From Petrimonas sp. (lineage in GTDB: Bacteria; Bacteroidota; Bacteroidia; Bacteroidales; Dysgonomonadaceae): 39,321 nt of DNA. The stretch spans positions 1-39,321 of the forward strand of contig JAQVEB010000001.1 of the NCBI GenBank assembly GCA_028698105.1. Reading direction: 5' to 3'. Each line of letters opens with the position of its first letter. The first letter of the stretch is position 1. The translations under genes and the position numbers were made by a program. The notes under the pieces were generated by a model that saw nothing but the letters and a program-made list of their open reading frames with translations, was not told the DNA's origin and did not search any database. This document shows, in pieces, positions 1,983-29,416 of this stretch.

Positions 1983-2014
1983 ACAAAAAAAGGGTTTTTT
2001 AAACCCTTTTTGTT
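1983..2014 (-). terminator. Terminator of the R-M/ATPase/STAS operon
   Basis: AACAAAAAAAGGG and CCCTTTTTGTT form an inverted repeat about 27 bases beyond the stop of the last minus-strand gene (stop at 2041). Being symmetrical, it may work in both directions. Confidence 0.65.
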
Positions 2015-2040: not shown

Positions 2041-2343
2041 TTATCCACAACAGTGGTAGGCTAAATTATCTATATATTTTTTTAGAATTCTTGCTAAAGT
2101 AGGTGTGTAGTTCGTTATTCTAATGTCGTTTTTAAATACTTCTAAACCATATTTCTCAATTACAGAACCTATTGAGGAATTTAAAAAAGAACTTGAAACA
2201 GAGTCAATTCCTGTAAAAGAAAGCAATATCTCAGATTTATTTGATAAGAGGTTATCAATTTGGGTAAATAGGGAAAAACCATCTACGTTTGTATATGTTC
2301 CCCCACATAAATCTTTGACAAATATTTTTTGACTTGCTTTCAT
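2041..2343 (-). CDS. STAS-like protein (DUF4325 type)
   Basis: A 100-residue protein. The segment LLSFTGIDSVSSSFLNSSIG (about residues 39-58) has the core pattern I associate with DUF4325/STAS-like domains: a buried strand, then a Ser-rich turn and helix, like the loop phosphorylated in anti-anti-sigma factors. A phosphorylatable Ser in SVSSSF is plausible but inferred. It starts 23 bases after the stop of the ATPase gene and ends the four-gene operon mod-res-ATPase-STAS. DUF4325 proteins commonly accompany GHKL ATPases, so the two are probably partners in a SpoIIAB/SpoIIAA-like switch. Whether they control or sense something for the adjacent R-M system is not known. Confidence 0.7.
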   Translation of the reverse strand: MKASQKIFVKDLCGGTYTNVDGFSLFTQIDNLLSNKSEILLSFTGIDSVSSSFLNSSIGSVIEKYGLEVFKNDIRITNYTPTLARILKKYIDNLAYHCCG

Positions 2344-2366
2344 TTTGCAAAAGTATAAATTAATAT

Positions 2367-3308
2367 TTAAAGTAGAAGAATTTCATCTGTTAATTCTTCT
2401 TCGATAACAGGTAAATTATTTGTATCTAATGTAACTACACAAATAGTACCCGGAAAATGGTTGTCCAATGTTATTTTTTTTGCTATCTTATCAGGATGAA
2501 AAATAATAAGGGCATTATTACTAATAACAATCATTTTACTATTAAGTTCATTAATATTAGATAGAACATTATCTAAACCGAATCCACGATTGTGAGGTAT
2601 AGAATATGTTGAAAAACTAAACTCAAAAGCTTTGGCAAGAGCATCTATGTTCTCCATTCTTTCTTCATTTTTATCCTTCAGATATTTGTTGATTTTATTG
2701 GGAATACCTACCCCAAAGTCGCAAACACAGGTAATAATAGAATTCATTTTTGAATTATATTGAGTGAATGTGTATCCCGGAATTTTGGAATCTGAATGGT
2801 CAAAGACATTATTCATTAACTCACCTAACGCAATACTGAGTGAAAACAAACTTTTACCATCGAAATGATTGTTTTCGTAATATTTTTTAATAAGGTCAGG
2901 ATAAATAGAGATTTTAGATTTTTCCAAACGCCAAAGTGGAAATGTTTTTGGATCAGAACATTTATATTCATCAAATTTTTCGTTATTGCAAAATTTATCG
3001 AAATAAAAGGAATTCAGATATTTAATTAATTCATCCGATGCATTCTTGATTCTCACTTTAAAACCCTGTGATTGGTACTCAAAAATTAAACAAGCTAACG
3101 CTGCAACGTGATATGGTTTGAGATGTAAACATAAAGTAAAGTCGAGAATGATTAGTTTTACGGGAAATAGCCTGAAATCGTGCTTTGAAACTCGATTATT
3201 ATTTATCCATTTAATATGTTCTTCAATGCTATTGAAGTCAATAACAATAATGGTTTTTATTTTACCTCTGTATCTTTTATAATGTTGTGAAATCTTAGAT
3301 TTTCTCAT
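2367..3308 (-). CDS. GHKL-fold ATPase with N-terminal STAS-like region
   Basis: A 313-residue soluble protein. The C-terminal half carries the ATP-binding motifs of the GHKL (histidine-kinase/anti-sigma) fold: N box ALGELMNNVFDHSD near residue 165, G1 box CDFGVGI near 200, and G2 box RGFGLDNV near 242. No phospho-acceptor H-box or sensor domain is visible, so it resembles an anti-sigma-type Ser kinase or ATP-driven regulator more than a sensor kinase. The first 125 residues (LKPYHVAALACLIFEYQSQG) look like a divergent STAS-like domain. It lies 25 bases after res and 23 bases before the DUF4325 gene, so it is co-transcribed with the type III R-M genes. Target and signal are unknown. Confidence 0.75.
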   Translation of the reverse strand: MRKSKISQHYKRYRGKIKTIIVIDFNSIEEHIKWINNNRVSKHDFRLFPVKLIILDFTLCLHLKPYHVAALACLIFEYQSQGFKVRIKNASDELIKYLNSFYFDKFCNNEKFDEYKCSDPKTFPLWRLEKSKISIYPDLIKKYYENNHFDGKSLFSLSIALGELMNNVFDHSDSKIPGYTFTQYNSKMNSIITCVCDFGVGIPNKINKYLKDKNEERMENIDALAKAFEFSFSTYSIPHNRGFGLDNVLSNINELNSKMIVISNNALIIFHPDKIAKKITLDNHFPGTICVVTLDTNNLPVIEEELTDEILLL

Positions 3309-3333
3309 AAAGTTAATTAAACGAAAATAGTTA

Positions 3334-5979
3334 TTACCTCATCCCCTTCAAAATATCAACTAATTCACCAATGGAGTTGGCGCCATCGAGTTTGGCATTA
3401 TTGAATACCATAAAGTAACGATAGTTATCGCCGGCTTTGCTTGCCCATAGTTTGCCCAAACGAATTTTTCGCTTGCTGTCGGAATTATCTCGGTCGTCGC
3501 CTTTGGTTTCGAGAAGTATGATATTTCCGTTTTTCATTTTTATAATGAAATCGGGATAGTGATTAACAAAACCATTTATGTAAAAACCTTTACCGCGTTC
3601 TAAGTTTCTATGCCAAAAAACAACGCTGTCAAGATTGGCGATTTTGTCAATTACTCTGCGTTCGAAATCATTCATTTCTCCTTCTTCGACATATAAGTTT
3701 TTTGTTATTCCCTGATGGGTGTTTTTAGGACTTATTCTTTTCGGAAATCCGAATGATTCCTTACAAACAACTAAGCCTTTGTCTAATTGAATATTGAATT
3801 GTTTTTCGGCATAATCATTTGTTAATGAATTGATTTTATCTTTAATTAAGTTTGAATAAAAGTAATCGTTTTGAATAATTTCAGCAATTTTTTCGCTATC
3901 CAAATCTTTTATCGCTCGTTTTATAAACTCGATAATTTGCGGTTCGGGAATTTCGTCTATGCGCTTTACCTGACGAGCTAACGCCGTAGCTAATTGGTTT
4001 ATTTTCCCTTCGGGAGATAAAGATGTAAAGTATTGTACAAAATTCTCTTTTACGGTATTGGGTACTTTTTTATATTCGGGTATGTATTCATCTTTTCGAC
4101 TTTCCACTAAATCAATACTATACATATCGGTGGTAGTTCTGGTAAAATCTATCTTGTGATCTTCCTTGCTTAAGTCGAACCCATCTAACAAGAAATTTTT
4201 TGTGAGAGGCAGGTATTCGCCTTTCGCTTCAAAAAGTGAACCTGTATCTACTCTTTTGTGAAAAGACGGTAGTTTGATGTCTTTTACTTCTGTCTTGAAA
4301 ATTTCCTTAACCGGATATGTTTTTACTTTGTCCATAAGTTCGGTGGGTATCGGGTTTTCTTCCTTTTTTAGTTCTTCAATTTTCTTTTCGTATTCGGAGT
4401 TTGTAGTTTGTGCTAATTGTATAACTTCATTTATAATTTTCTTGCTTTGTTCTGAATTAGATAGAGATATAATATTTTCGATGTCAATTTCCGGCTCATC
4501 ATTTACCGACTTAATACTTTGCGAGTAAGTAGGTTGAATTGGTTGAGAAAATAAATCTTCTAAACTTTCGGGGCTTTTGTTTTGTGCTTCCTCTGTCATT
4601 TGACTCTCGGGTGTGCGGTAATCTTTTGAACTAAATCCGGCTTTGTTTAAGCCAAGAATAATTCTATCCAATGTTTTCAGAAATTCATTGGATGATGTGA
4701 ATACATAAGAATAATTTAATAAATCAACTTTGTGTTTTGTGGTGTAGGGTTGTCGCAATATTCGCCCTAAGATTTGTTCCACATCCACACTCGAAGATTT
4801 GTTTGCCAATGTTGCCAAAACATAGGCAAAGGGACAATCCCAACCTTCTTTTAGCGCGTTGATGGTTATTATATACCGCACTTCGGATTCACGCGACATC
4901 AGGTCTTCGTTTTTGAGTTCGTCTTTGTTCGCGGTTTTTATACGAATTTGATTTTCGGGAATACCTATTTCGATAAGTTGAGCTTTAATTTTATCGAATG
5001 TTACATTGTCTTCATTGGTTTTTGGTTCTGCTTGAAATAGCACAATGGGGCGAATGTATTTCCCGCCGTTCTGTTCATTAATTAATGCTTTTTCCTCCAA
5101 TGTTTTCTGTAATTGAATAGCACTTATAATAACCTCGTTGGCACTTTGGTGGTTATAAACAATAACCGGCAGCTTGACCATATTGTCTGCTTTCAGTTTC
5201 AGGGCATCCACAAAACTAATGATATTGCTCTTTTCTCTGGGCGTTGCCGTGAGGTCTAAAATGAAACTCGGATTTAGGCTGTTGAGCATTTCGATGCGAA
5301 GATTTGCTTCGAAATTATGGCTTTCATCAATAATGATTACCGGATTCAATTGTGCGATTACCTGTATCAAGGCTGTTTCGTCTGCTCCGTCTATCATTTT
5401 ATCGGGATAGGTGTATGTTTCGGGAAATTGAGCAAGATTTTCATTTTCCCGATACACACGGCGACCATCTTTGTTGTTGGAAGCAAAAGACTGTACGCTA
5501 AGAACTAAAATGCTTAACTGCTCTTGCACTTCCACCGGATTAAATCCTTGTCCGAAAAGCAAGCTTTCTTTGTCCAACACCCTTACTGCATTGCCAAAAA
5601 GAGAATCAATTTTTTGCCTGTATGGATGATTGGGGTCGCTTAGGTTTTTGTATGTTTGTTTTAGAATGGTGTCGGATGGAACAAACCACGCTACCACTTT
5701 AGGTTTTTCGGGTGGATAACTGTCGAAAATAGGTTTTAGGGCATTGCAAGCAATAAATGTTTTTCCACCTGCGGTTGGTACTTTTGTAGTTACGCGCGGA
5801 ACTCCTTTGATGGAGTTGTCGTAAGGTTTTAAAAAACTATCTTCGATATGGTGGAACGATATGCCTTTATTTTCCCAAAAACGAGAGAAAGCTGCGCTTA
5901 TGTGTTTTGTTTCTTCGAGCAACCGGATATATTCCGACAAATCGTTGATTACTTCCTGCTGATATTGTTTGAGTTCCAT
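3334..5979 (-). CDS. res: Type III restriction enzyme, Res subunit (helicase-nuclease)
   Basis: An 881-residue ATP-dependent restriction subunit that translocates or slides and cuts DNA when paired with Mod. Superfamily 2 helicase motifs are complete: Walker A PTAGGKT at 68-74, DESH at 218-221, TATP at 244-247, motif V ALKEGWDCPFAYVL at 375-388, and motif VI QILGRILRQP at 402-411. The C-terminal nuclease is of PD-(D/E)xK type, with D810, E824 and K826 in PDF...LLETKG. Length is slightly below the usual 900-1000. It starts three bases after the mod stop, which indicates tight translational coupling. No frameshift or missing catalytic residue is seen, so it should be active. It acts in the cytoplasm on unmodified foreign DNA. 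Confidence 0.95.
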   Translation of the reverse strand: MELKQYQQEVINDLSEYIRLLEETKHISAAFSRFWENKGISFHHIEDSFLKPYDNSIKGVPRVTTKVPTAGGKTFIACNALKPIFDSYPPEKPKVVAWFVPSDTILKQTYKNLSDPNHPYRQKIDSLFGNAVRVLDKESLLFGQGFNPVEVQEQLSILVLSVQSFASNNKDGRRVYRENENLAQFPETYTYPDKMIDGADETALIQVIAQLNPVIIIDESHNFEANLRIEMLNSLNPSFILDLTATPREKSNIISFVDALKLKADNMVKLPVIVYNHQSANEVIISAIQLQKTLEEKALINEQNGGKYIRPIVLFQAEPKTNEDNVTFDKIKAQLIEIGIPENQIRIKTANKDELKNEDLMSRESEVRYIITINALKEGWDCPFAYVLATLANKSSSVDVEQILGRILRQPYTTKHKVDLLNYSYVFTSSNEFLKTLDRIILGLNKAGFSSKDYRTPESQMTEEAQNKSPESLEDLFSQPIQPTYSQSIKSVNDEPEIDIENIISLSNSEQSKKIINEVIQLAQTTNSEYEKKIEELKKEENPIPTELMDKVKTYPVKEIFKTEVKDIKLPSFHKRVDTGSLFEAKGEYLPLTKNFLLDGFDLSKEDHKIDFTRTTTDMYSIDLVESRKDEYIPEYKKVPNTVKENFVQYFTSLSPEGKINQLATALARQVKRIDEIPEPQIIEFIKRAIKDLDSEKIAEIIQNDYFYSNLIKDKINSLTNDYAEKQFNIQLDKGLVVCKESFGFPKRISPKNTHQGITKNLYVEEGEMNDFERRVIDKIANLDSVVFWHRNLERGKGFYINGFVNHYPDFIIKMKNGNIILLETKGDDRDNSDSKRKIRLGKLWASKAGDNYRYFMVFNNAKLDGANSIGELVDILKGMR

Positions 5980-5982
5980 TGT

Positions 5983-7584
5983 TTAAAATCTTCTGATGTC
6001 TCTTGGTATTTTCTTGAAAATGATGTTTTTTGCCAACATATAATCTTTGTCTAACAGACAACGGTCGGCATAAATGAGGTACTGTTCCGCTTGTTCTGTT
6101 ACGATGTCAAGCGTTTCGATGCTTAACGTGGTCAGTTTATCCTTTTCGTAATAGAAGTAATAGCCTGTATCGTTGTAGGTGTCTAACAGATATTTGTGTT
6201 CGGGTGTCTGCTCCCGGTCTAAGTATTGTTTTGTTTCGGAAAAATAGATGTATTCTCTTATTTTTTCTTCGCCTATTTCTTCGTTCAGGTTTTTATCTTC
6301 TTTAAAAAGCGGTTGCCCCAATTCATAATAATCGAAACTTCCACCTGTTCCCTCGGTAGTACTCTTTCCTGTACCGTAACCCTGCATTACTCGTTTTACC
6401 CTTTCTGCCGTGATACTGTCGGCGTAATCTTCCATTTCTATCAGAATGAATTTTCGGTTGCCACCGTCTTTATTTGCATTTAATACTGCTTGAGCTGTTG
6501 TGCCTGAGCCTGCGAAACTGTCAAGGATAATGGAGTTTTTATTGGTAGATATTTCTAATATTCTATTTAATAAACTTACGGGCTTTGGGGTTTGGAAAAC
6601 TTTCTCTCCATTAAAAATTTGCATCAACTCTTTTGTAGCCTCTGTTGCAGTACCCAAATCACTCCATATAGTAAAAGGATTTACTCCTTTTGTTTCTGCT
6701 TCAAATAAGAATCTTTTATATTGCGGTTTTGATTTTCCTGTTTTTCCAAACAAAATGCGGTTATCGGCAAATGCAATATCATATTTTTCCTTAGTAAATC
6801 TCCAATGTCTCCCTTTTGGTGGTAAATATATTTTATTTGTATTGGGATTCACTATTTCATATTGTAAGTTTTCTCGAATATTAGGAGCATCCATAGGATC
6901 TGCGACCCAGGATCCTCTTGGGTCATTATCAGGGTTTTTGAATTTTGCTTCAGTAATAGGTAGCGAATTAAGCCTAAATGTATTTCTATTCTTTGAATAG
7001 CAAAGAGTAGAGTTATGCGATAAAGAAAAATCAATGTCATTTTGACTCGATTTTCTGTGATGCCATATGAAGTTAGTTACAAAATTGTTTACCCCAAAAA
7101 TCTCATCACATATTAATTTGAGGTTAGCTTGTTCATTATCGTCAATGGAAATAAAAATAGCACCGTCGTCAGCCAAGAGTTTATGCAAAAGCACAAGGCG
7201 TGGGTACATCATACAAAGCCATTTATCGTGGCGTGAAAGGTCTTCGCCCTGCTTGCCTACAACTTCGCCTAACCATTTTTTTATTTTCGGATGGTTTACA
7301 TTGTCGTTATATACCCATTGTTCGTTTCCGGTGTTATATGGCGGGTCTATGTAGATACATTTGATACGTCCTTCGTATTGGGGCAACAGGGCTTTTAAGG
7401 CTTCTAAATTATCGCCGTGAATAATTTTGTTACCGCTCAACCCCTCCCCGGCACTCCCCACAGGTGTAGGGGGAGTTGTGGGCTGTTCAGCTTGAAAGGT
7501 ATATTTGTGTTCCAATACTCTAAACGGCACGTTTTGATGATGATTGACTACTTTTTCTTTTCCTATCCAATGAAGTGTGGGCAT
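5983..7584 (-). CDS. mod: Type III DNA methyltransferase, Mod subunit
   Basis: A 533-residue adenine-N6 methyltransferase of the beta class: the catalytic DPPY motif (residues 80-83, IYIDPPYNTG) precedes the AdoMet-binding FAGSGTT motif (about 356-363). The central variable part (about 170-340) should be the target-recognition domain. I chose ATG at 7584 (MPTLHWIGKEK). The longer frame from 7617 would start on top of a TAATTTTG -7 promoter element (7615-7622), and the family normally begins with MPTLHWIG. Residues about 33-51 (QPTTPPTPVGSAGEGLSG) are Pro/Gly-rich and encoded by a copy of the GC-rich palindromic repeat found elsewhere in the window. It lies ahead of the core fold, so activity is probably kept. 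Confidence 0.93.
   Translation of the reverse strand: MPTLHWIGKEKVVNHHQNVPFRVLEHKYTFQAEQPTTPPTPVGSAGEGLSGNKIIHGDNLEALKALLPQYEGRIKCIYIDPPYNTGNEQWVYNDNVNHPKIKKWLGEVVGKQGEDLSRHDKWLCMMYPRLVLLHKLLADDGAIFISIDDNEQANLKLICDEIFGVNNFVTNFIWHHRKSSQNDIDFSLSHNSTLCYSKNRNTFRLNSLPITEAKFKNPDNDPRGSWVADPMDAPNIRENLQYEIVNPNTNKIYLPPKGRHWRFTKEKYDIAFADNRILFGKTGKSKPQYKRFLFEAETKGVNPFTIWSDLGTATEATKELMQIFNGEKVFQTPKPVSLLNRILEISTNKNSIILDSFAGSGTTAQAVLNANKDGGNRKFILIEMEDYADSITAERVKRVMQGYGTGKSTTEGTGGSFDYYELGQPLFKEDKNLNEEIGEEKIREYIYFSETKQYLDREQTPEHKYLLDTYNDTGYYFYYEKDKLTTLSIETLDIVTEQAEQYLIYADRCLLDKDYMLAKNIIFKKIPRDIRRF
7439..7486. repeat. GC-rich palindromic repeat inside the mod coding sequence
   Basis: On the minus strand CTCCCCCT, a short spacer and TGGGGAG are followed by GCCGGGGAGGGG. 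This is the layout of the repeat copies at 26466-26497 and 27308-27345. It is translated in frame as a Pro/Gly-rich linker near the N-terminus of Mod. Confidence 0.6.
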
Positions 7585-7614
7585 AATTGTGTGTTTGTCT
7601 TTCGATAATAGGCT

Positions 7615-7622
7615 CAAAATTA
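7615..7622 (-). promoter_or_regulatory. Candidate -7 box of the mod-res-ATPase-STAS operon
   Basis: TAATTTTG on the minus strand fits the Bacteroidota TAnnTTTG consensus. It would start transcription about 20 bases upstream of the chosen mod ATG at 7584. I see no good -33 element at the expected distance. Confidence 0.45.
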
Positions 7623-7673: not shown

Positions 7674-8717
7674 TTACACTTCCTCTAATTCAAATTCATT
7701 TATCAGAGATAGCACGGCGGGATTTATTTCAATCATTTTATTGAGTGTGGGGCTGAAATTATTGTTATAACCTTGTGGAAGATTCGGTTTATGTAATTGC
7801 TCTAATATGAAATCGGCAATGTCGTAACCGATTTCAATTTGTTGTGGTGAGGCGTGTTTTTCCACGAGGTCGGAAATTGAGATGTGGCAATAGATTTCTG
7901 ATTTGAGTTGCACCATTTTTTCTTTCCATTTTGTGTAGCATCCGGCATCGGGATAAAGAATAACTTTTTTGCCTTTGAAAATTTTTGATTTTTCAACACT
8001 CAATCCATTGAGGTTGCCCGCGGCAAGCCAATTGAAATCGGGAAAAACCATACTTGCAATTATGGCTGTTTTCTCGGCTTCAACCACTGCGATGGGTTTA
8101 TCGGAATACATTCGCAAAAGATGTTCTCCGAAATAGCATTGCTGCAAATTGAAGTTCTTAAATTCGGGGTTGCTTTTCTTTAAGAGGTTATGTACCCAAT
8201 TAATTGCACCGGATTGTTGTTTGATGCGTTTACCGGTATCGGGGTTGTATTGCATAACCTTTCCGGTACGGAACTTTCCGTTTATATCCATTTGCCAAAA
8301 GATGACTTCTTTGTTTTTTGTGGCTCCCAATGCGTAATTTTCAACGGCATTTGTGATTTGCTCTTTGGTAAACATTTCACAAAGGAAACGAACAAAATTT
8401 GAGTTGAAAGAAGCGGATTCTTTTACTAATTTCCACGGAATGTAATTGATGGGCGAATTTTGCATTGGCTGTGGTATCATTTTTTTGTGTGAGTTGGTAA
8501 ACTCTTTTTTAGAAATGGGATTATCGGTAAAATATTGTTTGGGTGTATAATGGTAACCACATTTAACTTCGCGGTTACATTTGCCTACAGTTGAATGGAT
8601 TGGCGCGTTGGTATCTCCACTCAGATATAACGTAAAGCTTTCTTTTGTTTTGCATTGAGGACAGGTAGAACGGCTGGACTTTCCACTATATTTCTGTAAA
8701 TAAGGTTGCTTGTACAT
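7674..8717 (-). CDS. Zinc-finger/Toprim-like primase protein (DUF6371 type)
   Basis: A 347-residue protein. The N-terminus holds a four-Cys zinc ribbon (C19, C22, C47, C53 in CPQC and CNREVKC), as in DnaG-type primases. The middle contains PIAVVEAEKTAIIASM and VILYPDAGCY, which look like the conserved Glu and Asp strands of a Toprim domain. Such DUF6371-like proteins occur in replication modules of Bacteroidota mobile elements, and here it directly follows the RepA-like ATPase gene with a 32-base palindrome between them. Priming of element replication is the likely role, inferred from family and context. The end is 57 bases from the longest possible mod frame, so the cargo begins immediately after it. 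Confidence 0.75.
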   Translation of the reverse strand: MYKQPYLQKYSGKSSRSTCPQCKTKESFTLYLSGDTNAPIHSTVGKCNREVKCGYHYTPKQYFTDNPISKKEFTNSHKKMIPQPMQNSPINYIPWKLVKESASFNSNFVRFLCEMFTKEQITNAVENYALGATKNKEVIFWQMDINGKFRTGKVMQYNPDTGKRIKQQSGAINWVHNLLKKSNPEFKNFNLQQCYFGEHLLRMYSDKPIAVVEAEKTAIIASMVFPDFNWLAAGNLNGLSVEKSKIFKGKKVILYPDAGCYTKWKEKMVQLKSEIYCHISISDLVEKHASPQQIEIGYDIADFILEQLHKPNLPQGYNNNFSPTLNKMIEINPAVLSLINEFELEEV

Positions 8718-8746
8718 TTTTTATTCTGTTTTTTTAGAAACAATTG

Positions 8747-8778
8747 GTAACAATGGTAACAGGTGTTACCATTGTTAC
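8747..8778. repeat. Perfect 15-bp inverted repeat between the two replication genes
   Basis: GTAACAATGGTAACA (8747-8761), spacer GG, then TGTTACCATTGTTAC (8764-8778). The last base overlaps the stop codon of the RepA-like gene. Each arm contains two GGTAAC/GTAAC words, so it could be a protein-binding site. There is no T-run typical of a terminator. Confidence 0.7.
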
Positions 8779-9914
8779 TACGTGTTACTATCTGATTTTA
8801 ATTTGGTTACTATTCTTGTAACTTTAACTTTGAAACTATTGAAATTGCTTTCATCGGTACAAAGTTTCTTCGCAATTGAGTAAGCGGAAGCTTGAGGGTC
8901 GTCGTTTAGGCATTGCTGTATATCAGTCTCGAGTTTTTGCCTGTCTTTTTCAGAAACTACTTTTAAGTGTTTGAACTCGTAATCGAAGTTGAGGAACTCG
9001 AATTGTAAAAAATTGGCAGGCTTATTTATCTGACAAACAATAACATTGTTTGCATCATACTTATGTTCACAAAAACGCACTTTCATCATTTTAATATAGC
9101 GGAGTGATTTATCTGAAAAGCTTTCGCCTATGGCGAAACTGCTGTCACAGAAATTCATCAGCATTTTGCTTCCTTGTAAATCGTTTCGGGTTAGCGGTTT
9201 TGAAAGATCTCTTTTTGGCGTGTGCGCCAAAATGAGCAATGACAGGTTGTATTTGTTTTTTAGTTTTTTCAAGTGTTTCATTAGAGGAAGCGCATCTTTG
9301 GCTTTCTCGTTTTCGTGTCTTAGATAAGTAATGTTATCTATTATCAGAATTTCGGCTCCGGTTTCAATAATTGCTTGTTCGATTGAGTTATTCAAATAAT
9401 CCTCGAATGAAATTCCTTCAGGCATTTCGGCATCGACATCAATTTCTACTCTCAAAAAATTTTCGCTGAAATTATATGAGTTGGTATAATTTTCGGAATA
9501 GCGACCTTGAAACTGTTTATCGGTTAATTCAAAATCGAAGTAGAGAATTTTTCGGGCTTCTGATTCAAGTTGAAATCCGGGAACAGAAATACCCTTAGAA
9601 ATACTGTTGCCAATTTGAACTGCCAAAATGGATTTTCCAACATTGGTGTCGGCAAAGAGAATACACAATTCTCCTTCATACCAAAATTCGCTAAACAGCA
9701 TTTTGGGTATGGGCCTCAAAGCTGCTTGCTCTATCCATTTATTCGCTGATTTGACGTCGAAAAGTCCTATGGTGTTGTTTGCTTCGTTTTGCCTCAAATT
9801 ATCTTGTAAATCGTTGCTTAGCAAATAAATAAAATCATTATTTTTGTTTTGTGAAATTATATTGTCTCCCGTTTGATTGTGGTAGTCGGCGGGGGATTCT
9901 TTTTTTATATTCAT
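8778..9914 (-). CDS. RepA-like RecA-fold ATPase (AAA_25-type helicase)
   Basis: A 378-residue protein with Walker A FADTNVGKS (87-95), Walker B ILIIDN (189-194) and a following ILAHTPKRD segment, the arrangement of RepA/RSF1010-type hexameric replicative helicases and related AAA_25 proteins. The first 60 residues are polar and probably disordered. The C-terminal 60 residues (NDDPQASAYSIAKKLC...) look like a small winged-helix-like DNA-binding tail. It overlaps the upstream helix-turn-helix gene by four bases (ATGA), indicating translational coupling. With the adjoining primase it probably forms the autonomous replication module of the element. Confidence 0.8.
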   Translation of the reverse strand: MNIKKESPADYHNQTGDNIISQNKNNDFIYLLSNDLQDNLRQNEANNTIGLFDVKSANKWIEQAALRPIPKMLFSEFWYEGELCILFADTNVGKSILAVQIGNSISKGISVPGFQLESEARKILYFDFELTDKQFQGRYSENYTNSYNFSENFLRVEIDVDAEMPEGISFEDYLNNSIEQAIIETGAEILIIDNITYLRHENEKAKDALPLMKHLKKLKNKYNLSLLILAHTPKRDLSKPLTRNDLQGSKMLMNFCDSSFAIGESFSDKSLRYIKMMKVRFCEHKYDANNVIVCQINKPANFLQFEFLNFDYEFKHLKVVSEKDRQKLETDIQQCLNDDPQASAYSIAKKLCTDESNFNSFKVKVTRIVTKLKSDSNT

Positions 9915-10204
9915 ACTTCGATCTCCTTTCCAATAGGTTTTACGTGATTATTATCTAATAGCTCTTTGATATCGGACACTCTGTAATAAATTTTGTTACC
10001 GATTTGTGAGTAACCGATAACTCCTTTGTCTCGCCAAAGTTGGGCTGTTTTCTGACTAATATTCATTAATTCCATAAACTTTGGGTTGTCCATAAACATT
10101 TCTTCGGGAAATTGTCTGTTGTAGATAAAATCGCTTGCGATTTTGTCTAACTTACGGAGAATACGTTCGTATTGCTCTTTGAAAAAATCGTCGTAGTGCA
10201 TCAT
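9911..10204 (-). CDS. Helix-turn-helix (excisionase/AlpA-like) protein
   Basis: A 97-residue protein. An N-terminal helical region of about 50 residues (DDFFKEQYERILRKLDKI) precedes an HTH_17/MerR-like DNA-binding domain. Residues from about 52 (FMELMNISQKTAQLWRDKG) through the wing KIYYRVSDIKELL show the usual pattern. Pairs of such proteins sit beside integrases in Bacteroidota mobilisable elements and act as excisionases or replication regulators. It starts one base after the stop of the preceding HTH gene and overlaps the ATPase gene by four bases. The exact role is inferred from context. Confidence 0.8.
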   Translation of the reverse strand: MMHYDDFFKEQYERILRKLDKIASDFIYNRQFPEEMFMDNPKFMELMNISQKTAQLWRDKGVIGYSQIGNKIYYRVSDIKELLDNNHVKPIGKEIEV

Positions 10205-10205
10205 T

Positions 10206-10505
10206 TTATTTTCCTCCTTTCAAAATAGCGTTTACATCGCTCATCCGATATTTTCTTTTTCCTCCCACTTCGTTGTGGCACAGATAGCCTTTCTTGTGCC
10301 ATCTCCATAGTGTACTCCTATCCACATCCAATATTTTAGCAACCTCGTCGGGGCTTGGGTAGGTTTCGGCATTGGCATCGGTTATTTGTTGCTGAAGCTC
10401 TTGCTTTGTTGATTCAAGAAGTGTTTTAGCAAATTCTTTTAAATCAGTTAATGACACAGCAACGGTAACGTTGCCACTTTCTAATAAATCTTTAATTGGT
10501 ATCAT
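10206..10505 (-). CDS. Helix-turn-helix (excisionase-like) protein
   Basis: A 99-residue protein when started at ATG 10505 (MIPIKDLLESG). The frame continues to an ATG at 10583, but the extra 26 residues look untranslated, being rich in aromatic residues without pattern. The N-terminus is helical; the C-terminus holds a typical HTH_17 domain, YPSPDEVAKILDVDRSTLWRWHKKGYL plus the wing KRKYRMSDV. It is the first gene of the operon HTH-HTH-ATPase-primase. A TATTTTTG box lies at 10618-10625, with a GTGGTGCAA motif next to it that recurs at the integrase promoter, so the two units may share a regulator, possibly this protein. Confidence 0.78.
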   Translation of the reverse strand: MIPIKDLLESGNVTVAVSLTDLKEFAKTLLESTKQELQQQITDANAETYPSPDEVAKILDVDRSTLWRWHKKGYLCHNEVGGKRKYRMSDVNAILKGGK

Positions 10506-10617
10506 CGCTTTTCTTTTTATAAAGATTATTGCATCGGGGTAGCCGTAAAACAATCCTCTGCAATTATATCCATTCCATTTCAAAGGTTTACGGTCGCTTT
10601 GATGGAGAAGGATAGTG

Positions 10618-12562: not shown

Positions 12563-13888
12563 TTATATTAATAAATCCACTAGTTCTTTTTTCATATCAT
12601 CGTCAATATCTCTATATCGAGCAAAAGCCTTACTTCCCTCTTTATGGCCACTTAATGAGCCGACTAAGCTAGGGTCTTTTACTTGTTTATACAAATTTCC
12701 GACAAAACTTCTTCTTGCAATATGTGAACTTGCGATTTCATTAAGGGGCTTCTTCTCTTCTTCGCGAGTAGTTGGATTTATTACGGTTACCAATCTTGTG
12801 AGCCCGGCGATAAGAAACATATCTTTAATGGCATCATTGTATTTTTGTTCACTAATAAACGGTAATAACTTGGGGCAATCAGGGTATCTATCCAAAATCT
12901 CCAAGGCGATTGAATTCAATGGCACTCTTACGGTTATGGGGCGATTTTCTTTTGTTTTTCTTGCAACGTACTCAATTGCTCCGTTCATAACATTGTCTTT
13001 CGTCATTTTATACATATCCCCTACTCGACAACCAATTAGACACTGAAAGACGAAAATATCTCGCTGTATAGCCAATTGAGGGCGTTTAGTCAAATCGGCA
13101 TTGTACAATGTGTTTCTTTCATCAATAGATATGTAATAAGGTGTACCATAAACACACTCCTCAACTGTGTAATTTTCAAATGGGTTGTTTGTTGTTTTCT
13201 TCTCTTTTATAGCCCAAAGTATGAACGTTCTGATTTTTGTAAAAATATCATTAATGGTGTTTTGTCCTCTTTTTTGTGGGGTTCTTTTTTCAGGAATTTG
13301 CGCATAAATATCGGGGTAATCTATGTAATATTGATGCTCATTGCGCATAAAATTCTCAATATCGATCAATGTGTCAGAGGTAATATTATCAAACGTCAAA
13401 ATAATTGGCTGACGTATATATTTCTTGTAAATCTCATATCGCTGTAAAGCTCGCTTGATTACTTTAAAATTATTGATTCTGACTGTCGATAATTTTCTTT
13501 TATTTAAGAATTCGTCGAATGCTTCAAAGAATGTTTGTTCTTGGTGTTTATTTTTCAGTTCAGGGTATTTATGTGGATTAATTTTTTTATCTATTTCAAT
13601 ATCTAACATATCAGAAGTGAGGGCTTCTTTATTAATAGTCTCACTATAAATATCACCTATTAATCTCTTTCGCTCATTGACTGCATCATTAAATATTTTT
13701 CTTTCCAAAGAAGGATAAATGACCTTGGCTTTTATGGCTTGTTTTTTATCGTCCCAAACTTCGGGATCAATCGTAAATTCACTTGTATGAAAAAGTTGAA
13801 TATTTCTGCCATCTCTTAATCGGAACCTGATATTTACTGAATCTGTTTTTCTTTTAGTGGTCCTAATAAATGCTTGAATTGTTGCCAT
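12563..13888 (-). CDS. Tyrosine recombinase (Bacteroidota element integrase)
   Basis: A 441-residue site-specific recombinase when started at ATG 13888 (MATIQAFIRTTKRK). The upstream extension to 13972 crosses the promoter repeats and is rejected. Order: N-terminal arm-binding domain (about 1-90), SAM-like core-binding domain (about 120-215), catalytic domain (about 255-441). All catalytic residues are present: R288 (CLIGCRVGD), K311 (ARKTKENR), H389 and R392 (HIARRSF), H415 (SGHKEG) and nucleophile Y425 (FARYRDID). It should therefore be active and would insert and excise the element to its left. Its promoter is overlaid by repeated GTGGTGCAAAT motifs, suggesting autoregulation or arm-type binding. 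Confidence 0.93.
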   Translation of the reverse strand: MATIQAFIRTTKRKTDSVNIRFRLRDGRNIQLFHTSEFTIDPEVWDDKKQAIKAKVIYPSLERKIFNDAVNERKRLIGDIYSETINKEALTSDMLDIEIDKKINPHKYPELKNKHQEQTFFEAFDEFLNKRKLSTVRINNFKVIKRALQRYEIYKKYIRQPIILTFDNITSDTLIDIENFMRNEHQYYIDYPDIYAQIPEKRTPQKRGQNTINDIFTKIRTFILWAIKEKKTTNNPFENYTVEECVYGTPYYISIDERNTLYNADLTKRPQLAIQRDIFVFQCLIGCRVGDMYKMTKDNVMNGAIEYVARKTKENRPITVRVPLNSIALEILDRYPDCPKLLPFISEQKYNDAIKDMFLIAGLTRLVTVINPTTREEEKKPLNEIASSHIARRSFVGNLYKQVKDPSLVGSLSGHKEGSKAFARYRDIDDDMKKELVDLLI

Positions 13889-13911
13889 AATTCTGAAATT
13901 CATTGGTTTGT

Positions 13912-13955
13912 ATGTGGTGCAAATATACAAAATTTGCACCACATTTGCACCACAT
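13912..13955. promoter_or_regulatory. Operator-like repeats over the integrase promoter
   Basis: A perfect 13-bp inverted repeat, ATGTGGTGCAAAT (13912-13924) and ATTTGCACCACAT (13932-13944), has a third copy in direct orientation at 13943-13955, 11 bases on. The minus-strand -7 box TATATTTG (13920-13927) lies inside the inverted repeat, so binding there would block or control integrase transcription. Confidence 0.65.
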
Positions 13956-14089
13956 AATGCAATTATTTGCAATAAATTTCAATATTATTTTTCTCTCATA
14001 TAAATCATAATTATATGTATATCAGTATTAATAAGTTATCTAATGAGATTTCAGGTTATTTTATTTGATTGAAAAACTCAAACACGGCT

Positions 14090-28996: not shown

Positions 28997-29416
28997 TTAC
29001 TGTTTTTCTATGAATTCTGCAATGGTAATAATTTGCGTTTTTTCAAAAGGATTCAACTCCAATAGATCTTTATCTCCCGTCAGCAAAAAATCGGCTTTTC
29101 CATCTTTCGCAAGTGACAATAGGAAATTATCGTTGAAATCGCGACATACATTTATTCTGCTTTTCACATCTACAAAATCAATGTAGGCATCGAAAACAGA
29201 TAAGATATCTTCCAACGCTTGCTCTTCACGGAAATATTTTCTCAATTTCGGTTTCTGAATTGTAGCCCCCAGTTCATCAATTAGTTCGGCGCTAAAAAGC
29301 AAAATAAAATTGTTATTGACAAACAATTTATCAAGAATTTCAAATTGATTTGAAATAAGAAAACTGATCCAAATATTTGTATCAATAATTACTCTATATT
29401 GTTTATTTTTTCGCAT
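28997..29416 (-). CDS. PIN-domain toxin (putative RNase)
   Basis: A 139-residue PIN-fold protein of the family often called putative toxin component, PIN family. Acidic active-site residues are visible: D in VIIDTNIWISFL near the start, E in AELIDELG, D in NVCRDFNDNFLLSLA and D in FLLTGDKDLL. It would cleave RNA with Mg. It overlaps the antitoxin gene by 14 bases and ends six bases before recN. All catalytic residues are present, so in contrast to the ParE/RelE module at 20.8-21.4 kb this one is probably functional. Confidence 0.85.
   Translation of the reverse strand: MRKNKQYRVIIDTNIWISFLISNQFEILDKLFVNNNFILLFSAELIDELGATIQKPKLRKYFREEQALEDILSVFDAYIDFVDVKSRINVCRDFNDNFLLSLAKDGKADFLLTGDKDLLELNPFEKTQIITIAEFIEKQ

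Follow-up and report, generated by a model that had tools for sequence, protein, structure and literature searches.

A putative kinase-STAS pair of the CapK/VapK kind behind a type III restriction-modification system in Petrimonas sp.

The window (the whole stretch of 39,321 nucleotides of Petrimonas sp. DNA that was analyzed) carries a type III restriction-modification (R-M) system followed by two small genes, whose products, judging from sequence, are a kinase/STAS pair of the CapK-CapS and VapK-VapS kind. The explanation that we favor, with slightly better than even confidence, is that the type III R-M operon has taken up a two-protein, DNA damage-responsive kinase switch as cargo. The pair belongs to a class, here called tail-less, that has neither the C-terminal tail of VapS nor a third gene. 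The tail-less switch looks active, yet both published outputs are missing. The literature searched describes neither this class nor its distribution across restriction operons and prophages; the kind of switch itself has been known since 2026.

The genes for Mod (5983..7583), Res (3334..5979), a GHKL protein (2367..3308), and a DUF4325 protein (2041..2343) all lie on the minus strand, separated by 3, 25, and 23 nt, and these ORF positions bear out the four co-directional genes of an earlier, sequence-only reading. That reading had further proposed one operon with a shared promoter and terminator. The terminator 3′ of the last gene is real, with the stem of its hairpin at 1987..2011 (assigned to the minus strand, found on both). 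The proposed minus-strand promoter at 7615..7622 (TAATTTTG) is a lone −7-like box 5′ of mod, with no Bacteroidota-type −33/−7 pair at the site, and 46 such boxes are seen versus 42 expected. A clear Bacteroidota promoter for the operon was rejected, since nothing rises above chance. A single mod-res-kinase-STAS operon is still likely because of the spacing and orientation of the genes, but the promoter gives no proof of it.

Upstream of the operon, a tyrosine integrase gene (12563..13972, minus strand), together with HTH_17, AAA_25, and DUF6371 genes at 7674–10583, points to a mobile island as the carrier of the operon; neither a convincing direct repeat pair nor a tRNA was found at the island ends. 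The non-coding stretch past the operon contains a 31-nt repeat (923–953 and 1758–1788, 87% identical), which is accompanied by a terminator-like hairpin.

Mod, a type III DNA methyltransferase, matches Pfam N6_N4_Mtase (PF01555, 4e-42) and, over its full length, PADLOC MTase_III (3e-207). The true start is probably ATG at 7583 and not TTG at 7617, because the MTase_III alignment begins at residue 12. Res, a restriction helicase/endonuclease of 881 aa, matches Pfam ResIII (PF04851, 1e-15) and PADLOC REase_III (1e-70), and has a relative with 75% identity in Marinilabilia. The motifs DPPYNTG and FAGSGTT in Mod, and PTAGGKT, DESH, LTATP, QILGRILRQP, and YPDx13ETK in Res, can be read directly. The motifs of both proteins are therefore complete as had been claimed, including PDx13ETK in Res; mod and res stand together with methyltransferase and helicase motifs and a PD-(D/E)xK site, as in a type III R-M system.

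The GHKL protein (313 aa) consists of an N-terminal STAS-like domain (residues ~18–110) and a GHKL domain (~120–297). Its Pfam HATPase_c_2 match is below the cut-off (7e-4), and its family profile matches SpoIIAB/CheA. Glu163, Asn167, Asp170, His171, Asp197, Gly199, Gly201, Gly242, Gly244, and Gly287 are conserved, and Glu163, Asn167, His171, Asp197, Gly199, Gly201, and Gly242 among them are invariant across 44 aligned kinase rows. In the AlphaFold model (pLDDT 85), the GHKL domain matches SpoIIAB (TMt 0.68), and the N-terminal half is folded as β-α-β-α with STAS topology. This predicted topology and a marginal match to the prestin STAS domain (0.0095) are the basis for regarding the N-terminal domain as STAS-like. 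A STAS-like domain joined to a GHKL domain with intact E/N/D/G motifs is the architecture of a CapK/VapK-like kinase.

The partner protein (100 aa) matches PF14213 (DUF4325) over the cut-off (3e-12) and the solved Escherichia VapS (9Z7O_A) at 5e-9, with family profiles at 2e-13 and 6e-13. Ser51 (codon ~2193–2191) is aligned with Ser48 of VapS, the position of Ser54 in CapS, and is the putative phospho-acceptor; the column is Ser or Thr in all 15 aligned tail-less pairs. The protein has no C-terminal tail, and all the aligned tail-less STAS proteins end before VapS residues 94–116. Sequence search did better than Foldseek for this protein: its AlphaFold model (pLDDT 93) gives no strong match in the PDB (best E 0.47), and the STAS domain of YchM is third. 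The proposal of a GHKL-STAS partner-switch pair co-directional with the type III system was right.

CapKS and VapKSC were described by Chambers et al. (EMBO J, June 2026; PMC13373217), the only place in the literature searched where the names CapK and VapK are found, and in this respect the sequence-only reading, whose author was not aware of a described type III system with this fixed partner, is outdated. CapK is a kinase of HTH-STAS-GHKL build that ssDNA activates, and CapS is a repressor made of a STAS domain and a wHTH; both are located ahead of immune operons (PMC13373217). In VapKSC, the STAS antitoxin VapS holds the PIN RNase VapC until the kinase VapK sets it free, and the tail of VapS (residues 94–116) is required for inhibition of VapC (PMC13373217). 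The ssDNA trigger has been shown biochemically for CapK only and is inferred by the authors for VapK; the aromatic residue stacking on ssDNA is Trp68 in CapK and Phe54 in VapK (PMC13373217). The position of this residue in the window kinase should be noted. The column likely corresponding to VapK Phe54, as assigned by inference, is occupied by His62, whereas it is Phe or Trp in 19/20 VapK-clade rows and Phe in 12/15 tail-less rows. The trigger of the window kinase may therefore differ.

The window pair shares with VapKSC the kinase architecture, the kinase-STAS order, the Ser/Thr acceptor, and the STAS domain by sequence (5e-9). However, vapC and the VapS tail are lacking, and the kinase falls in a different clade. 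Downstream of the STAS gene, as far as position 1, no PIN ORF is found; a terminator follows instead. A VapC-like PIN gene at 28997–29416 is unlinked to the pair. CapKS resembles the window pair in combining a STAS-GHKL kinase with a STAS substrate and in its frequent R-M neighbors, but the window kinase has no HTH, the window STAS protein has no winged helix, and no immune operon follows. No HTH match was obtained for either protein of the pair, and both are too short for the CapKS domain set. Lacking a winged helix, the STAS protein has no evident DNA-binding output. SpoIIAB/SpoIIAA and RsbW/RsbV are also pairs of a GHKL serine kinase and a STAS substrate, and SpoIIAB is the structural match, but the window kinase has the extra N-terminal STAS-like domain, and there is neither a phosphatase nor, as already stated in the sequence-only reading, a sigma factor in the vicinity. 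Guards of restriction systems of the PrrC/RloC type are likewise second devices within R-M operons; unlike them, the window operon has no gene for an anticodon nuclease or other effector.

To collect relatives of the pair, DUF4325 was searched for in 396 genomes from the phylum and 395 from the class, pairs also in plasmids, phages, and viral contigs, and the kinase, by profile, in 295 genomes from the order; neighborhoods were annotated with profiles built from the data. Weak DUF4325 matches near 23 bits (L185–L192), which resemble ordinary STAS proteins, were left out. The pairs fall into several classes. In VapKSC, a common form in the phylum sample, a PIN gene (by Pfam; 9Z7O_C, 1.8e-49) lies directly 3′ of the STAS gene. 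In a second class, the pair is followed by a gene for a small membrane protein (L037, L052, L062, L161, L168, L172, and L175). The protein encoded by this third gene, also found at L316, has 167–204 aa and membrane segments, is weakly similar to SLATT_4 at L037, and is possibly a different effector. Others are fused kinase-STAS proteins or DUF4325 proteins of 272–283 aa with an extra C-terminal domain (L174:8649-9500, L295:9291-10112, and L300:334-1152). This extra domain appears Rossmann- or TIR-like by eye and is followed by a C-terminal hydrophobic helix, apparently in the membrane; the L300 pair is directly 3′ of a type I-like methyltransferase gene. The tail-less pairs without a third gene are the class of the window pair.

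In the kinase tree, the window kinase forms a 100% group with L286 and L287 inside a clade with 98% SH-aLRT support, apart from CapK and from Escherichia VapK, the reference for which is an E. coli vapKSC beside a prophage found by a DNA search of E. coli genomes with L069 (L056 as the query found nothing). L287 (G978:C1 ~187830-188705) has an internal TAA and is probably inactive. This placement bears on whether the window pair is an orphan remnant of a VapKSC that has lost vapC. In favor of such decay, VapKSC is common in the phylum sample and is found behind type III R-M systems too (L041 and L081). However, the window kinase does not fall in the VapK clade, no PIN-like ORF is present between 1 and 2000, and phages and the whole clade alike have the tail-less form, in which the catalytic and acceptor residues are intact. 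We disfavor decay as very improbable.

Pairs of this kind adjoin DNA-cutting defense systems far above expectation, which supports the sequence-only reading in kind. R-M genes are located within 4 kb of 5/16 tail-less pairs, 7/18 pairs of the VapKSC clade, and 0/17 membrane-protein and fused pairs (Fisher p 0.004; the window and L081 left out). PF02384 methyltransferases, of which there are 3.2 per genome, lie within 4 kb of 4/16 tail-less pairs, whereas 0.8% is expected on that basis (p ~8e-6). The nearest pair, L286 (56% and 57% identity, same order, 100% branch), comes last, behind DndD/PbeC-like and DndH/HerA-like genes; only 98 nt of its contig remain past the STAS gene, so that a third gene is possible there. 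The L166 pair has hsdS on one side and hsdR on the other, within a type I operon, the L049 pair lies behind a type I R subunit gene, and the L176 and L181 pairs precede the genes of a type ISP enzyme and an Eco57I-type IIG enzyme, respectively. VapKSC is behind type I systems at five loci (L056, L058, L069, L071, and L310), and 88 of 443 capKS sit directly downstream of an R-M system (PMC13373217). Since defense genes cluster generally, part of the proximity to R-M may come from the island and not from the switch.

Type III operons themselves show that the pair is not the fixed partner of mod/res suggested by the sequence-only reading. Among the 80 closest Res relatives, 65 are evaluable (at least 1.5 kb visible downstream), and only one has a kinase-STAS pair, a VapKSC in Polaribacter (L081); the two relatives from the same family (L317 and L318) have none. 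A second mod-res-VapKSC, L041, was found via DUF4325. Since the window pair is tail-less and those at L041 and L081 are VapKSC, a pair entered a type III operon on at least two occasions, from different clades. Directly 3′ of res, other relatives have genes for Abi_2, PHP-AAA, GmrSD, KAP NTPase, RhuM, DUF4365, and DUF2971 (L079–L156) or for DUF5655 with an HSDR_N-like part; PHP-AAA is represented by six loci with a 929-aa gene. This place 3′ of res is an accessory slot in which second devices are interchangeable.

The gate suggested by the sequence-only reading would be one in which the STAS protein binds Res or Mod to restrain restriction and the damage-activated kinase releases or blocks the enzyme. 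In its favor, the mod-res-kinase-STAS order arose separately with VapKSC at L041 and L081, and pairs lie within or immediately beside a Dnd-like operon and R-M operons of four different types. On the other hand, 64 of the 65 evaluable Res relatives do without the pair, the R-M partners of the pairs have no common subunit, and related tail-less pairs occur without R-M in ~50 phage contigs. Direct gating of Mod-Res is possible, but the data are explained without it, and we regard it as improbable.

The phage pairs were revealed by a scan of viral contigs with the family profile, which gave 75 loci; the same scan with the window kinase alone gave nothing. About 50 distinct temperate-phage contigs (among L200–L283) have a lone kinase-STAS pair, mostly tail-less, with a kinase of ~300 aa and a STAS protein of ~100 aa. 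The two genes usually overlap by 7 nt and are mostly located shortly 3′ of a lysin-sized gene, and a PIN gene is beside the pair only at L273 and L274. In the tree, most of the phage kinases form their own group next to the window clade. PHROG 3364 and 9989, both of "unknown function," are these phage proteins and thus gain a likely biochemical identity as kinase and STAS substrate. Because prophages and chromosomes also carry related pairs by themselves, R-M is not the only client of tail-less pairs. Many tail-less pairs are on their own in this way, so that nearness to R-M may come from defense islands generally, which counts against the favored explanation.

The pair could instead be a stand-alone defense or lysogenic-conversion unit with a chromosomal or phage target, for which the place behind res would be no more than the accessory slot of a defense operon. 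The ~50 prophage contigs with the pair alone point to this, as does the slot that accepts many other defense genes, but no activity of a lone pair is reported in the literature searched, and some of the other classes have an effector gene or a fused domain. We consider this explanation unlikely, though deserving some weight.

For the favored explanation, a damage-responsive switch carried as cargo, we infer kinase activity, an ssDNA trigger, and coupling to restriction for the window pair from its sequence relatives. The 313-aa protein would be a serine kinase of the CapK/VapK kind that phosphorylates Ser51, or a residue next to it, in the 100-aa STAS protein. By analogy, the kinase would be turned on by ssDNA from cut or damaged phage or host DNA. 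Restriction itself may make DNA able to trigger the kinase, and restriction-made DNA is also proposed as a possible trigger by the authors of CapKS (PMC13373217). Co-transcription would then couple the sensor to the DNA-cutting enzyme. Phosphorylation would change the dimerization or the partner of the STAS protein. The partner is predicted to be neither VapC, since the gene and the VapS tail are missing, nor an operator, since there is no winged helix, and would therefore be another protein: a chromosomal client, or an R-M complex subunit when at hand.

Extended to the whole class, this suggests, at somewhat less than even confidence, a third two-gene class of CapK/VapK switch, whose output is neither transcription nor VapC. 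It would occur on DNA-cutting systems (type I, IIG, ISP, III, and Dnd-like) and in many prophages, and in restriction operons it would report restriction damage and change cell fate or enzyme activity. The tail-less class separated here must have an output other than the two published. A sensor of the DNA damage type would sit within restriction operons themselves, in several unrelated kinds of them, so that the coupling of restriction to later cell responses can be tested directly.

Two further observations should be noted. At L060 (3728-14640), a VapKSC lies between the genes of an SNF2/NO VEIN-C helicase and a DUF1156 methyltransferase, in a DISARM-like or related cluster. Both proteins of the window pair also match the N-terminal part of the 1750-position DrmA model PDLC02567 of PADLOC, in the order GHKL and then STAS, suggesting a DISARM DrmA with the switch fused on.
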